Source: Rhizobacter sp. (GTDB taxonomy: Bacteria; Pseudomonadota; Gammaproteobacteria; Burkholderiales; Burkholderiaceae). From it: DNA of 5,237 bases. Position 1 is the stretch's first letter. Every line of letters begins with the position of its first letter. Of this stretch, positions 10 through 5,237 are shown in pieces. Both the position numbers and the translations under genes were made by a program. Where the stretch lies: contig JACMKW010000485.1 of the NCBI GenBank assembly GCA_014379885.1, positions 1-5,237 on the forward strand, in the 5' to 3' direction. The notes below the pieces were generated by a model. The model was given only the letters and a program-made list of their open reading frames with translations, was not told where the DNA came from and made no database searches.

Positions 10-456
10 ATGAGAGTTTTGCGTAGCGTTTTTGCTTTGTTGATGGTGGCCCTGCTCACCGCCTGTGCCACAGGCCCCAAGATGTCTGAAGTCAGCGCGT
101 CCATCAAGCCTGTGCAAGCGAACGAGGCCCGTGTGTACTTCTATCGCAGTGGCAGCATGATGGGCGCCGCGATCCAGCCCAACATCCTGCTCAACGGCAA
201 GGTCGTCGGTGAATCCAAGCCAGGCGGCTTTTTCTTTGTCACCACGGCCCCCGGCCCGATGGAAGTGAGCACCTCGACCGAAGTCGAGAAGAAGCTGACC
301 TTCAACCTGGATGCCGGCCAAACGCGCTACGTGCGCACCAAGGTTGGGTTCGGCATCATGGTGGGTCGTGTCTACCCTGAATTGGTTGACCCGGCCGAGG
401 CCACCAAGGAGTTGGCTGACACCAGCTACATCGGCGCGCCCTTGCCCAAGCCCTGA
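10..456 (+). CDS. DUF2846-like outer-membrane lipoprotein
   Basis: This is a 148-residue predicted lipoprotein. Residues 1-18 form a lipoprotein signal peptide: MRVLRS, then a hydrophobic core, then the lipobox L16-T-A-C19. Cys19 would be lipidated, and Ala at +2 (no Asp) favours Lol-dependent sorting to the outer membrane, facing the periplasm. The mature part has the pattern of DUF2846 proteins: ARVYFYR at about residues 40-46, an 'ILLNGKVVGES' strand pair near 59-69, a Gly-Phe turn, then an 'LDAGQTRYV' strand near 100-108. The family has no established biochemical role. The start is well bounded, because an in-frame TAG lies two codons upstream at 4-6. Only nine bases precede the ATG, so its ribosome site and promoter cannot be judged. 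The family call rests on recognised pattern, not on a profile search. Confidence 0.85.
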   Translation: MRVLRSVFALLMVALLTACATGPKMSEVSASIKPVQANEARVYFYRSGSMMGAAIQPNILLNGKVVGESKPGGFFFVTTAPGPMEVSTSTEVEKKLTFNLDAGQTRYVRTKVGFGIMVGRVYPELVDPAEATKELADTSYIGAPLPKP

Positions 457-541: not shown

Positions 542-1054
542 ATGAGCCAAGCCTCCCGCGCTGACACCTTGCGTCAAGAGTTGATCCGCAACTTCAACGA
601 CGTGCCACTCAAGCACGAACAGCGCGACCCGTTGTACGACGCCTTGGGTGCCCGCCTCGGCCCCGGCACCGCCGCACGCAAGCTCGGCGCGAGCGTTGAC
701 ACCGTGGCGCCCGGCAAGCGCTCGTGCCCCTACCACTTTCACTACGCACAAGAAGAGATGTTCGTCGTGCTCGAAGGCGAGGGCACGCTGCGTGTGGCAG
801 GCGAGATGCTGCCCATCCGCAGCGGCGACGTGGTGTTCATTCCGCCGGGCCCTGCGTACCCGCACCAGATCATCAACTCCTCGGCCGCGCCGCTGAAGTA
901 CCTGTCCATCAGCACCAAAGACAGCCCCGAGGTGGTGGAGTACCCCGACTCCGGCAAGTACCTGGCCTCGGCCACGCGCGATGGCGACCCGTATGGGTTT
1001 GACCAGATCCACCCCCTCAAAGACGCCCTCGACTATTGGGATGGCGAGCCCTGA
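542..1054 (+). CDS. Single-domain cupin protein, function unknown
   Basis: This 170-residue protein has one conserved beta-barrel cupin domain (Cupin_2 type, about residues 50-125) and no signal peptide, so it is probably cytoplasmic. Motif 1 is visible as Y64-H65-F-H67-YAQE-E with a Gly at 79, and motif 2 as G95-D-VVFIPPG103-PAYPH108-QIIN112. His65, His67, Glu71 or Glu72, and His108 give the full three-His/one-Glu metal site, so a divalent metal is expected. The C-terminal tail (about 126-170) is rich in Asp, Tyr and Gly, ends in DYWDGEP, and looks like a family-specific extension. Cupins of this size include isomerases, dioxygenases, decarboxylases and sugar-binding proteins, and nothing here picks one. 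The start is set by the AAGGAG at 530-535. Hairpins lie on both sides, so it may be its own transcription unit. Confidence 0.93.
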   Translation: MSQASRADTLRQELIRNFNDVPLKHEQRDPLYDALGARLGPGTAARKLGASVDTVAPGKRSCPYHFHYAQEEMFVVLEGEGTLRVAGEMLPIRSGDVVFIPPGPAYPHQIINSSAAPLKYLSISTKDSPEVVEYPDSGKYLASATRDGDPYGFDQIHPLKDALDYWDGEP

Positions 1055-1153: not shown

Positions 1154-3388
1154 ATGAAGCTTGCGTTTTCTTTCGCGTTTTCTTTCGCGTTTTCTCAACT
1201 GCGCCATGCCGCTTTGGCGTTGGCCCTTGGCGGCACAGCGCTGGCCGCCTTCGCGCAAACCACGCTGCCCACCGCCGCCGTGCGCAACGTGACCGACACC
1301 CATTTCGGCACCAAGGTCGACGACCCCTACCGCTACTTCGAGAACAAGGCTGACCCCGACGTTGCCAAGTGGATGAAGGCGCACAGCGACCATGCCTACG
1401 CCACGCTGGCGCGCATTCCCGGGCGCAACGCGCTGCTTGAAAAGATCCAGAAATACGACTCCGCCACCTCCGACCGCATAGCCCAGGTCACGCGCCTGCC
1501 TGGCGACCTGTACTTCCTTGAGCGCCGCTCGGCGACCGAAAACCAGTTCAAGCTCTACATGCGCCAGGGCGTAAAGGGAGCCGACAAGTTGCTCGTCGAC
1601 CCCGAGGCGCTGGAAAAGAAAACCGGCAAGCCGCACGCCATCAACTGGTACACCCCCTCGCCAGACGGCTCACTGGTGGCCTATGGCCTGTCGGCCCAGG
1701 GCTCTGAAGCAGCAGTGCTGCACCTCTTGAACACACGCACCGGCAAGCCTGTGGGCACACCCATCCCCCGCGCTGACTTTGGCGGGGTCGATTGGTCGCC
1801 CGATGGCAAGAGCTTCGTCTTCAACCGCCTGCGTGCTCAAGGCAAAGGTGCGAAGGCCACCGACAAATATCAGAACAGCCAGACGCTGCTGCTGCGCCCC
1901 GGCGAGCGCGTGGCAGCCGCCCGCAGCGTGTTCGGCACCGACGTGAAAGGCGTGAAGATCGGCGCCGCTGAGATCCCGGTGGTGAGCTTCTCGCACGACG
2001 GCCAATGGGCTTTCGGCTACGTGATCAACGGCACCCAGCGGGAACAAGGCCTGTACGTGGCACCGCAGGCGGGCGTGCTGTTGGGCAAGCCGGCCTGGAA
2101 GCGCGTGCTCAGCAGCAGCGACGACGTCACCAGCATCGCCTACTTCGGCGGCACGCTGTATCTCGTCTCGCACAAGAGCGCGCCGCGCTCGCAGGTGCTG
2201 TCGCTCAAGCTCGGCTCACCCGACTTGAAGTCGGCCGAGGTGGTCATGCCCGCTTCTGACCGCGTGGTGGTCAACGTGGTGGCCGCGGCCGATGCCATCT
2301 ATGTGGAAACACGCGACGGCAACGTCAAGCGCCTCTTCAAGCGCGCCCACGGTGCGAGTGGTGCGCCGGTGGAAGTGAAGCTGCCGCTCGAAGGCTCGTT
2401 CGAGCTGTCCAACAGCGAAGGCGGCGTGACCGCGGCCAACCCCAGGCTGCCGGGCGTCATCATCGACCTGCAAAGCTGGAACAGCGCACGCCAGGTCTAC
2501 CTGGTGGCGGCCGACGGCAGCGTGGCCAACACCGGCCTGCAACCCGCCGGCACGTACGACACGCCGCAAGGCATTGTGACCACCGAGGTCAAGGTGAAGA
2601 GCCACGACGGTGCGCTGGTGCCCTTGTCCATCATTCACCGCGACAGTGTGAAGCTCGATGGCAGCAACCCCACCATCTTGTACGGCTACGCAAGCTACGG
2701 CATCACCGAAGAACCCTTTTACAGCGTGAGCCGCCTGGCCTGGCTCGATGCCGGCGGCGTGTACGCCATTGCCAACCCGCGTGGCACCAGCGTCTACGGC
2801 GAAGAGTGGTACCGCGGCGGCTACCAGGCCACCAAACCCAACACCTGGAAAGACTTCATCGCCTGCGCTGAATACCTGATCGCGCAGAAGTACACACAAG
2901 CTTCCAAGCTTGGCATTCTGGGCGGCAGCGCCGGTGGCATTCTGGTGGGCCGGGCCATGACCGAGCGGCCCGACCTGTTTGCAGCCGTCATCCCCGCGGT
3001 GGGTGCACTCGACATGATTCGCATGGAAACCACCGCCAACGGCGTGCCCAACATCCCCGAGTTCGGCAGCACCAAGACCGAAGCCGGCTTCAAGGCCTTG
3101 CTGGCCATGAGCACCTACGCCAACATCAAGCCCGGCACGCCTTACCCCGCCGTGATGCTCACGCACGGCGTGAACGACCCACGTGTGGAGGTGTGGGAAA
3201 GCACCAAGGCGGCCGCTCTCCTGATGGCCAGCACCAACAGCGGCAAGCCGGTGCTCATGCGTCTGGCCTACGACGCAGGCCACGGAGTGGGCAACACCAA
3301 GAAGCAGCAGCTGGAAGAGCGGGCCGACATGTTTGCCTTCTTCCTGTGGCAGATGGGTGTGCCGGGCTTCCAGCCGCCTCCCCCCTGA
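1154..3388 (+). CDS. Secreted S9-family (prolyl oligopeptidase-like) serine peptidase
   Basis: This is a 744-residue serine peptidase of clan SC, family S9, near the usual 690-750. A Sec signal peptide (1-34, AAFA before Gln35) sends it to the periplasm or outside. The N-terminal cap includes D57-P-Y-R60. The beta-propeller runs to roughly residue 470, with blade motifs such as PSPDGSLVAYG and WSPDGKSFVF. The alpha/beta-hydrolase domain follows (about 476-744). By position the triad is Ser592 in G-G-S-A-G-G, Asp675 in N-D-P-R and His710 in A-G-H-G. Tyr512 in YGY matches the oxyanion-hole Tyr473 of porcine prolyl oligopeptidase, and Arg677 matches its Arg643. An ungapped count from the nucleophile puts Asn633 where that enzyme has Trp595, the ring that stacks on the P1 proline. 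Cleavage after proline is therefore not assured, and 'S9 peptidase' is the safer name. It is likely a peptide scavenger. The gene converges on the chaperone-like gene 105 bases away. Confidence 0.95.
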   Translation: MKLAFSFAFSFAFSQLRHAALALALGGTALAAFAQTTLPTAAVRNVTDTHFGTKVDDPYRYFENKADPDVAKWMKAHSDHAYATLARIPGRNALLEKIQKYDSATSDRIAQVTRLPGDLYFLERRSATENQFKLYMRQGVKGADKLLVDPEALEKKTGKPHAINWYTPSPDGSLVAYGLSAQGSEAAVLHLLNTRTGKPVGTPIPRADFGGVDWSPDGKSFVFNRLRAQGKGAKATDKYQNSQTLLLRPGERVAAARSVFGTDVKGVKIGAAEIPVVSFSHDGQWAFGYVINGTQREQGLYVAPQAGVLLGKPAWKRVLSSSDDVTSIAYFGGTLYLVSHKSAPRSQVLSLKLGSPDLKSAEVVMPASDRVVVNVVAAADAIYVETRDGNVKRLFKRAHGASGAPVEVKLPLEGSFELSNSEGGVTAANPRLPGVIIDLQSWNSARQVYLVAADGSVANTGLQPAGTYDTPQGIVTTEVKVKSHDGALVPLSIIHRDSVKLDGSNPTILYGYASYGITEEPFYSVSRLAWLDAGGVYAIANPRGTSVYGEEWYRGGYQATKPNTWKDFIACAEYLIAQKYTQASKLGILGGSAGGILVGRAMTERPDLFAAVIPAVGALDMIRMETTANGVPNIPEFGSTKTEAGFKALLAMSTYANIKPGTPYPAVMLTHGVNDPRVEVWESTKAAALLMASTNSGKPVLMRLAYDAGHGVGNTKKQQLEERADMFAFFLWQMGVPGFQPPPP
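1163..1195 (+). repeat. In-frame 12-base tandem repeat in the signal peptide
   Basis: The unit GCGTTTTCTTTC occurs at 1163-1174 and 1175-1186, with a 9-base partial third copy at 1187-1195. Because 12 is a multiple of three, it encodes A-F-S-F repeated at residues 4-14 of the peptidase precursor. It lengthens the hydrophobic N-terminus before Q-L-R-H and the usual hydrophobic core. It is T-rich, unlike the surrounding coding DNA. Confidence 0.9.
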
Positions 3389-3493: not shown

Positions 3494-4243
3494 TCAAGCA
3501 CCAGGTGCTGAGGCGGCCGGCTCAGGCACGTACACGGGAATCAGGGGCTTCTGGTCCGCGGGGAGCTTGGCGCGCAGCACATCGAGGCGCTGGTTCTTCT
3601 GCTCGGGAGTGAGCGTTGCATCCTGCTGAACGAACATGGCCTCCATCGTGATGCGGGCGTAGCCGTCGTAGGGCCCGAAGAGCGCATTGGCGGTGGCATC
3701 GTCGAAATGGCGGCGCCGCACGGCGTCCATCTGGTCGAAGAAGGCCATCGATTCGACGAGGCTGTTGGGGATGCCCTTGGGCAGCAGCTCCTCGCGCACG
3801 TCTTTGGTGTAGCCACGGTAGTCGCGAACGAGCTTGAGCGCCTTCTCAGCGTCTTCCTTGGGCAGGCCTTCTCGCAAGGTGCGCTCCAGCCGAGCGAGGT
3901 CTTTCTCGGACAGCTCTTCCGGCATCGAATTCAACAGCGCTTCGATCGATGCGCGGGTGTTGCGGTCGATCACCAACCCGCCGGCAAACCCCAGCTCGAA
4001 CAGACGCGCCGCGCTGAGCGTGGCGCCCATCGCATCCGACACCGTGACCTCCCAGGGCTGTGCACCAGACCCGCCCGACGCAGCGCTTCGAGCGCCGGCG
4101 CCTGCAACCCCGCTGGCTGTCGCCGATGAGGCAGGTGTGGGCTCCGCCTCAGCTGGTGAGCGCATCAACGCGTATGCGACCACACCAACCGCCACCAAGC
4201 CAGCCAACACCACCAACCATGAACGCTTGAGCATTTCGACCAT
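3494..4243 (-). CDS. Lipase secretion chaperone (foldase)-like membrane protein
   Basis: This 249-residue protein reads from ATG 4243. Residues 9-27 form one transmembrane anchor after K6-R7. A flexible Ala/Gly/Ser/Pro linker (about 29-63) leads to a charged, helical periplasmic domain (65-235). This is the architecture of LifO/Lif foldases, which hold and fold lipases in the periplasm before type II export. Family-like stretches are 'LFELGFAGGLVIDRNTR' (81-97) and the C-terminal helix pair with R177-R-H-F, A-L-F-G (187-190), Y195-A-R-I-T and 'LTPEQKNQRL' (211-220). The protein is shorter than typical foldases (about 340). The signature RxxFDY is only R97-A-S-I-E-A, so Phe, Asp and Tyr are replaced by Ile, Glu and Ala. 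The gene is divergent from the PETase-like gene, its possible client. The start is uncertain: ATG 4234 is an alternative and neither has a good ribosome site. I recognised the family by pattern, with no search done. Confidence 0.8.
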   Translation of the reverse strand: MVEMLKRSWLVVLAGLVAVGVVAYALMRSPAEAEPTPASSATASGVAGAGARSAASGGSGAQPWEVTVSDAMGATLSAARLFELGFAGGLVIDRNTRASIEALLNSMPEELSEKDLARLERTLREGLPKEDAEKALKLVRDYRGYTKDVREELLPKGIPNSLVESMAFFDQMDAVRRRHFDDATANALFGPYDGYARITMEAMFVQQDATLTPEQKNQRLDVLRAKLPADQKPLIPVYVPEPAASAPGA

Positions 4244-4309
4244 GAGCTTTAAGAAGATCACCAAGGGAGCCTGAGCATAGTGGGCATCGCGTGGCACGGC
4301 CCTGACAGC

Positions 4310-4333
4310 GATGGGGGCAGCTGTACCCCCATC
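4310..4333. promoter_or_regulatory. 24-base inverted repeat, candidate operator
   Basis: Arms GATGGGGG (4310-4317) and CCCCCATC (4326-4333) are perfect complements around CAGCTGTA. The 8+8+8 layout suits a dimeric repressor such as a TetR- or GntR-type protein, and it lies in the divergent promoter region. It could also form an RNA hairpin in the chaperone gene's leader. No regulator gene is in view, so the binding protein is unknown. Confidence 0.5.
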
Positions 4334-4366
4334 AAGATCAACACACCCGACGCGCGCGTAACACAA

Positions 4367-4383
4367 AAGCCTGCTCGAGGCTT
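4367..4383 (-). other. Small inverted repeat with T-run on the minus strand
   Basis: AAGCCT (4367-4372) and AGGCTT (4378-4383) make a 6-base stem around GCTCG. Read on the minus strand, the stem runs into TTTTG, like a weak intrinsic terminator. There it could stop antisense reading from the PETase-like gene or attenuate the chaperone leader. A second operator half or chance is also possible. Confidence 0.3.
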
Positions 4384-4502
4384 GATCCCGAACGCAGCTG
4401 GAAAGCGCCAATGAGAAAGTTGGGCGGCCAGAGAAAGATCGGCCACCCACCGCCAAAACAGGCCCGACTCCACCGGCTGCGGGTTTCCATCACACCCCAG
4501 TC

Positions 4503-4507
4503 AGGAG
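4503..4507 (+). promoter_or_regulatory. Ribosome binding site of the PETase-like gene
   Basis: AGGAG (within CAGGAGAC) lies six bases before the ATG at 4514. It sets that start, and the resulting protein opens with a good signal peptide. Confidence 0.85.
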
Positions 4508-4513
4508 ACAACC

Positions 4514-5237
4514 ATGACAACCCTGCAAGGCTTCGCCAAAGCGGCCCTGTTCATCAGTGCGCTGATGCTCTCCGCCGGCACTTTCGCCCAAACCAACCCC
4601 TACGCACGCGGCCCGAACCCTACCCGCGACTCACTCGAAGCCAGCCGCGGCCCCTTCGCGTTCAGCTCGTTCACCGTGAGCCGCCCGAGCGGCTATGCCG
4701 GCGGCACCGTGTACTACCCCACCAACGCGGGCGGCACCGTGGGCGCCATTGCAGTCGTGCCGGGTTTCTCTGCACGCCAGAGCAGCATCAACTGGTGGGG
4801 GCCACGGCTCGCCTCCCACGGTTTCGTGGTCATCACCATCGACACCAACTCCAGTTTCGACCAGCCTCCCAGCCGCTCACGCCAGCAGCTTGCGGCGCTC
4901 GACCAGGTGGCCACGCTTGCGCGCACCAGCGGCAGCCCGATCTACAACAAGGTGGACACCACGCGCATGGGCGTGATGGGCTCGTCGATGGGCGGTGGCG
5001 GTTCGATGATCTCGGCTCAGAACCGCCCCTCACTCAAGGCGGCGATACCGCAATCGCCTTCGGTCAGCTCGACCAACTTCTCATCGGTCGTCGTGCCGAC
5101 CTTGATCTTTGCGTGCGAGAACGACACCGTCCCGCCGGGCGGCTCGCAAGCCGTTGCGATCTACAACAGCATGATGCTCAACCCCAAGCAGTTGCTGGAG
5201 ATCGCCGGCGGCAGCCCCTTTTGCGGCAACAGCAATC
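4514..5237 (+). CDS. PETase/cutinase-like secreted hydrolase with altered active site (3' end cut by window)
   Basis: The first 241 residues of a roughly 290-residue alpha/beta-hydrolase are present, and no stop is reached. A Sec signal peptide (1-25, TFA before Gln26) precedes mature [11 protein letters not shown], the same opening as I. sakaiensis PETase as I remember it. Long blocks match it, including [30 protein letters not shown] and STNFSSV. Such enzymes hydrolyse polyester or cutin-type esters outside the cell. By ungapped counting (I. sakaiensis numbering = local + 2), nucleophile Ser158 (160), Met159 (161), Asp204 (206) and Cys201/Cys237 (203/239 disulfide) are present. Tyr87 is Phe85. 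Catalytic His237 is Pro235, Trp159 is Ser157, Trp185 is Ser183, Asp186 is Val184 and Ser238 is Phe236. After Cys237 the loop reads G-N-S-N, about three residues shorter. As read, the triad is incomplete, so this is a pseudoenzyme, a diverged enzyme or a sequence containing errors. Family membership is very sure and activity is doubtful. Confidence 0.93.

Follow-up and report, generated by a model that had tools for sequence, protein, structure and literature searches.

A PETase-like protein of Rhizobacter sp. that reads proline in place of the catalytic histidine

The search for enzymes that recycle plastic has led to the collection and screening of many PETase-like sequences. The closest described enzyme is IsPETase of Ideonella/Piscinibacter sakaiensis. 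According to a study that compared proteins of this kind, the catalytic triad is conserved in all 69 of them (PMC5785972). The same study states that replacement of the catalytic histidine of IsPETase (H237A) nearly abolishes activity, that 5% and 8% of the BHET hydrolysis are left in the mutants W185A and W159A, respectively, and that S238F alone strongly lowers activity (PMC5785972). A PETase pseudoenzyme devoid of the histidine was not found in the literature searched, which does not prove that it is unreported. Nor did this literature yield a report on PETase paralogues of Rhizobacter.

We here deal with a PETase-like gene at the very end of the window, as we call the whole stretch of DNA that was analysed, a single contig of 5237 bases (Table 1). 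An earlier note, made from the letters alone, had claimed that its product carries proline instead of the catalytic histidine and should lack normal esterase activity.

The PETase-like gene and its active site

The reading frame runs off the contig at position 5236, and about 44 C-terminal residues, as estimated from the related protein P0002, lie beyond. Otherwise the gene looks normal. It has no stops, its frame is intact up to the contig end, its start resembles a signal peptide and is preceded by a motif like a ribosome-binding site; a promoter scan of positions 4200-4600 found no sigma-70-like site, which tells little. The product matches the family profile PF12740 with 314 bits (cut-off 28, 1e-93) and, among the entries of the PDB, IsPETase (6eqd) at 5.4e-104. 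Against the NCBIfam model of bis(hydroxyethyl) terephthalate hydrolase (NF051441) the truncated query reaches 247.9 bits, which is below the equivalog cut-off of 520. AlphaFold2, working with the C-terminus missing, returned a model with a mean pLDDT of 84.4 and a pTM of 0.80. Its top PDB match in Foldseek is again 6eqd, with 76% identity over 215 columns and an rmsd of 1.1 Å; the predicted fold is the alpha/beta-hydrolase fold of IsPETase. Confidence is low at the key blocks, the mean pLDDT being 59 for residues 201-210 (with Asp204 and Pro207) and 63 for residues 231-240 (with Pro235). Cys201 and Cys237 align with the cysteines of the additional type II disulfide, residues 203 and 239 in IsPETase numbering.

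Table 1. Features of the window
Feature	Positions	Strand	Remarks and basis
DUF2846 protein	10-456		upstream of the PETase-like gene
Cupin	542-1054		upstream of the PETase-like gene
Prolyl-oligopeptidase-like S9 protein	1154-3388		upstream of the PETase-like gene
Short Lif-like lipase chaperone	3494..4243	-	249 aa from first ATG; PF03280, 2.8e-13; divergent to the PETase-like gene
AGGAGA ahead of ATG	4503..4508	+	like a ribosome-binding site; sequence reading
PETase-like ORF	4514..5236	+	241 codons, open at contig end; PF12740, IsPETase match
Signal-peptide-like N-terminus	4514..4588	+	residues 1-25, putative cleavage between ...TFA and QTNPY; sequence, alignment to IsPETase precursor
His102 (ASHGF)	4817..4819	+	sole histidine of the visible protein; column H 98, W 21, R 1 in best 120 of 1676 matches, window's protein included
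Ser157 (TCG)	4982..4984	+	replaces Trp159; 265-member alignment
Ser158 (TCG)	4985..4987	+	nucleophile kept (GSSMGG); 265-member alignment
Ser183 (TCG)	5060..5062	+	replaces Trp185; 265-member alignment
Asp204 (GAC)	5123..5125	+	catalytic Asp kept; 265-member alignment
Pro207 (CCG)	5132..5134	+	replaces Ala209; 265-member alignment
Pro235 (CCC)	5216..5218	+	replaces catalytic His237; 265-member alignment
Phe236 (TTT)	5219..5221	+	replaces Ser238; 265-member alignment
Contig end within the loop after the His position	5225..5237	+	CGNSN; DNA comparison with relatives; cut off, uncertain

The family alignment comprises 265 members, i.e., 230 listed proteins and 35 further ORFs from the loci of relatives. 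The listed proteins are the best 120 of 1676 matches (E<=1e-40) together with the best 120 of 6614 (E<=1e-30), 110 of the latter being new. All 265 members have serine in the nucleophile column, and the catalytic aspartate is present in 264 of the 264 that cover its place. In the column of His237, histidine is found in 261 of 262 covered members; the single proline is that of the window's protein. The earlier note had proposed to look for other members lacking the histidine: none turned up among the 262 aligned sequences covering the column, which are best-listed matches and locus ORFs; since the searches list best matches only, a more distant one could be missed. Three of the 265 members, P0029, P0107 and P0108, end before the column. 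Their tails are unlike the family and look frameshifted, that of P0029 on a contig of 121 kb, and hint at decaying copies elsewhere.

Sequence and alignment to IsPETase thus bear out the motif G-G-S-P-F-C with Pro235 at the place of His237, and serine and aspartate are intact, as had been read. Of the Ser-Asp-His triad of a functional PET hydrolase or cutinase, Ser158 and Asp204 are present and the histidine is Pro235, subject to the accuracy of the sequence. Because the triad is incomplete, the protein, a PETase homologue by descent, does not deserve the label of PET hydrolase. The claim that the only other histidine lies in the ASHGF strand holds as well, His102 being the sole visible one. 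Its column is not part of the triad, because 43 of the 265 members lack histidine there and all 43 have His237; as a stand-in for the catalytic residue His102 is out.

The active site differs from that of the relatives in further residues, which the earlier note had overlooked. W159S and W185S are unique among the 265 members, A209P is unique among the 263 that cover its column. At the place of Trp159 the family has 138 W, 125 H, 1 Y and the serine of the window's protein; at that of Trp185, tryptophan prevails (252 of 265), the sole serine again is that of the window's protein, and its sister P0002 has leucine. Ala209 is alanine in 261 members, valine in one and proline here. The three codons begin at 4982, 5060 and 5132; they are not artefacts of the contig end, because they lie 103-255 bases inside the contig. 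The aromatic residue of subsite I, Trp185, is Ser183 in this protein. Type II enzymes combine Trp159 with Ser238 (IIb) or with Phe/Tyr238 (IIa); Phe236 fits IIa, Ser157 fits neither. The loop after the histidine position reads CGNSN here as against CANSGNSN in type IIb relatives, one GNS unit being apparently missing, with the contig ending within the loop. As to the codons, TCG, TCG, CCG and CCC stand where TGG, TGG, GCN and CAC are expected, each being a change to C plus at most one further base. A non-aromatic residue at the place of Trp185 is also seen outside this lineage, lysine in P0224 and P0228 and alanine in the PETase-like ORF of locus L045; all of them keep His237.

Phenylalanine next to Pro235 had been taken as a sign that the site mixes features of two groups of enzymes. 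It says little in this respect, because phenylalanine is the commonest residue of the Ser238 column (141 of 262 covered members, with serine in 88). The double mutant S238F/W159H of IsPETase is reportedly improved; its structure, 7osb, is among our PDB matches. S238F is therefore the weakest argument for inactivity. Taken together, H237P, W159S, W185S, A209P and S238F support and strengthen the proposal that normal esterase activity would be lost.

Departures at the active site and their history

Do these departures cluster at the active site? Two sets of positions were used, namely 16 positions in the loops round the catalytic residues, which are our own choice, and the active-site list of PMC5785972. 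Among the 215 mature positions, 118 are conserved to at least 95% in a set of 53 close homologues, and the window's protein departs at 10 of these. Five of the 10 fall into the loops (p 0.004) and three on the published positions (p 0.013). With the missing histidine at 235 left out, since it was the reason for looking, the figures are 4 of 9 (p 0.015) and 2 of 9 (p 0.067). Strictly invariant columns yield p 0.012 for the loops and 0.067 for the published list. The loop test becomes weaker with larger reference sets: p is 0.027 (95%) and 0.26 (strict) with 103 references, 0.09 and 0.43 with 118. Residues that are seen in no reference were also counted. Against the 53 references, 4 of 17 lie at the published positions (p 0.021), the maximum among the 53 themselves being 2; against 118 references it is 3 of 11 (p 0.032), a number also reached by the distant member P0111. 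In a leave-one-out comparison, references departing at an otherwise invariant active-site position numbered 0 of 53, 1 of 103 and 0 of 118. The clustering signal is moderate and depends on the reference set.

The closest protein among the matches listed is P0002, an ENA entry of 291 aa with 86% identity. In a maximum-likelihood tree of 119 proteins the two are sisters with a support of 100 and a stem of 0.187. Both have Ser86, Met165, Ser181, Val184, Gln212 and Gly238, and in both Trp185 is lost. Unlike the window's protein, P0002 keeps His237, Trp159 and Ala209. Since the sister has retained the histidine and Trp159 without having Trp185, the active site was probably lost stepwise. The simplest order would be loss of Trp185 in or near the common ancestor, followed by Trp159, Ala209 and His237 on the branch of the window's protein. 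The window's protein would document, in nature, the succession of steps by which the active site of a PETase disappears.

The terminal branch of the window's protein measures 0.151, about three times that of P0002 (0.048), and its distance from P0014 exceeds that of P0002 by 0.10; it may therefore have changed faster after parting from P0002. Over the whole tree its root-to-tip distance is unremarkable, rank 66 of 119. Pairwise dN/dS to 11 relatives amounts to 0.23-0.38; the 55 pairs among those relatives have a median of 0.29 and a range of 0.06-0.67. Averaged over this history with its long branches, the PETase-like gene was under purifying selection, which may or may not hold for the time after the split from P0002. 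Broad pseudogene decay is not supported, given the frame open to the contig end, the ordinary dN/dS and the middling root-to-tip distance; the early pseudogene that the earlier note had offered as an option finds no frame break or stop in its favour.

A short chaperone and tandem PETase-like genes

The gene divergent to the PETase-like one encodes a short relative of the lipase chaperones (Lif). Its product matches PF03280 with 50.7 bits (cut-off 25.7), over the first half only, and all 8 aligned members of its kind match this profile at E<=0.01. It falls short of a full-length Lif: profile positions 5-224 of 336 are covered, the C-terminal third is absent, and the NCBIfam score is 81.3 as against a cut-off of 285. 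A profile built from the window's chaperone and seven relatives covers residues 21-225 of 332 of the solved chaperone 2es4_D. Eleven other complete short chaperones measure 244-254 residues, the start having been chosen by script; one more is cut by a contig end.

Chaperone genes were surveyed in 11 and in 399 genomes, at least three of which (G001, G005, G010) were in both sets. The two surveys gave 40 distinct matches at E<=1e-10, 18 of them with at least 160 bits. Fifteen of these 18 have a divergent PETase match 278-426 bases away, as measured from match to match. Two more are cut at contig ends, where part of the pair is left, one with a partial PETase match (G230), the other apparently split over two contigs (G002). 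Only one, G005:C2:165296-166000, lacks a PETase match, none being found up to 170000. None of the 22 weaker chaperone matches has a PETase match within 1.5 kb. Weaker PETase relatives would be missed here, because the PETase matches stop at E 1e-60 or 1e-40. Seen from the other side, 16 of 42 PETase matches have a short chaperone within 1.5 kb; among the other 26 are genes close to a contig end and the second copies of tandem pairs. Short chaperones beside PETase-like genes are seen in the window and in the loci L001, L035, L036, L037, L038, L074, L075 and L076.

This pairing was not found reported in the literature searched, where PETase and a foldase meet only in work on autodisplay. From the arrangement it would seem that certain native PETase-like enzymes are served by a folding helper of their own. 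Should that be true, the chaperone would be of use for the expression of PETase-like enzymes.

The PETase-like genes themselves tend to be repeated. In Rhizobacter MAG_54 (L001, 3138-7939) the order is PETase-a, chaperone on the minus strand, PETase-b and PETase-c; the window's gene takes the position of PETase-b. Four relatives (L035-L038) each combine two PETase-like genes, lying within about 5 kb, with one or two matches to the chaperone. In the 12 kb of locus L039 there is a single PETase-like gene, and the chaperone found no match. Nor did the remaining genes upstream in the window match anything in the relatives' loci compared (L001, L035-L039). Redundancy of PETase-like genes is common in this lineage.

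Possible explanations and comparison with known systems

What, then, is this protein? We lean, with somewhat more confidence than doubt, to a natural, secreted but catalytically inactive paralogue of PETase. The fold, the nucleophilic serine and the aspartate would have been retained, the general base (His237) and both aromatic residues of the substrate cleft (Trp159 and Trp185) lost. No acyl-enzyme is to be expected, because the serine cannot be activated without the histidine, and a cleft without the two tryptophans should not stack on aromatic rings. The loss was perhaps tolerated because related genomes carry tandem arrays of PETase-like genes; a similar redundancy in the window's own genome would be the likely reason.

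Second comes the possibility that assembly or sequencing went wrong at the histidine codon, close to the contig end, a case that we consider unlikely. The natural protein would then have the full triad, still lack Trp159 and Trp185, and be a weak or altered esterase. Trust in the sequence is lowest at Pro235, because only 19-21 bases separate its codon from the point where the 5237-base contig ends. Relatives also have a different codon next to it and a different loop behind, which is what a poor read tail would give, and the proline is known from a single sequence on one contig, while every other covered sequence has histidine (261 of 262). Against an error speaks the combination EIAGGS-x-x-CGN, which the window's protein has in common with P0002 and which is absent from the other 118 of the best 120 of 1676 matches. 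Parts of it do occur elsewhere, AGGS in P0009, CGN in P0076, P0079, P0080, P0088, P0091 and P0096. Because the full combination unites it with P0002, the tail is probably native to the lineage of these two; a foreign or random contig tail is disfavoured. Moreover, W159S, W185S and A209P lie in the interior of the contig. A sequence error, which the earlier note had also considered, can therefore explain the histidine codon and cannot explain these interior changes. In balance, the proline at codon 235 is quite probably real.

A repurposed binding protein, be it for esters, polymers or the sensing of a ligand, appears more doubtful still. The plant receptor GID1 shows that such a fate is conceivable: it is a ligand sensor whose triad lacks the histidine. 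Retention of the fold, of Cys201/Cys237, of the signal-peptide-like start and of an average dN/dS would be in line with a binder, as would an overall root-to-tip distance that is not raised and the stepwise loss in a lineage shared with P0002. Binding of a polymer, as had been suggested, is however weakened, because both aromatic residues that grip the rings of PET are gone. Nor can a new site be demonstrated to be conserved, because none of the other 229 homologues among the best-listed matches has lost the histidine. If a new role were true, this would be, to our knowledge, the first binding protein with a PETase fold.

The least probable alternative by far is an enzyme in which another base, from the unsequenced C-terminus or with the aid of water, replaces His237: serine and aspartate are intact and the last ~44 residues (by P0002) lie outside the window, but the column of the only visible histidine lacks this residue in 43 of 265 members, all with His237, the sister P0002 has no histidine after its catalytic one, and H237A nearly abolishes the activity of IsPETase (PMC5785972).

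The inactive secreted paralogue, which we prefer to a codon error, a binder and a surviving enzyme, in this order, can be extended to a bolder picture. A natural secreted pseudo-PETase, its active site selectively dismantled and its fold kept, would serve a non-catalytic role beside its dedicated short Lif-like chaperone, within a conserved PETase-chaperone module. In its entirety we hold this picture to be improbable, on a par with the binder. A PETase homologue that shares about 76% of its residues with IsPETase and lacks the catalytic histidine is a reminder that similarity alone is no guarantee of activity.

With IsPETase, a type IIb enzyme, the window's protein has in common the family PF12740, the serine and aspartate of the triad and the places of the additional-disulfide cysteines. 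It differs by the absence of His237, by the replacement of Trp159, Trp185 and Ser238, by proline instead of Ala209 and by a loop after the histidine position that is apparently shorter, and cut off. With the actinobacterial cutinases of type I, such as TfCut2, it shares the phenylalanine after the histidine position. These enzymes have His-Phe and a second histidine at position 159, according to PMC5785972; the window's protein has Pro-Phe and serine. Of the PETase-like ORFs from the relatives' loci, 35 are distinct from every listed protein; unlike the window's, each of these 35 has His237. The nearest counterpart in terms of gene order is the second PETase-like gene of Rhizobacter MAG_54, which occupies the same place beside a short Lif-like chaperone.
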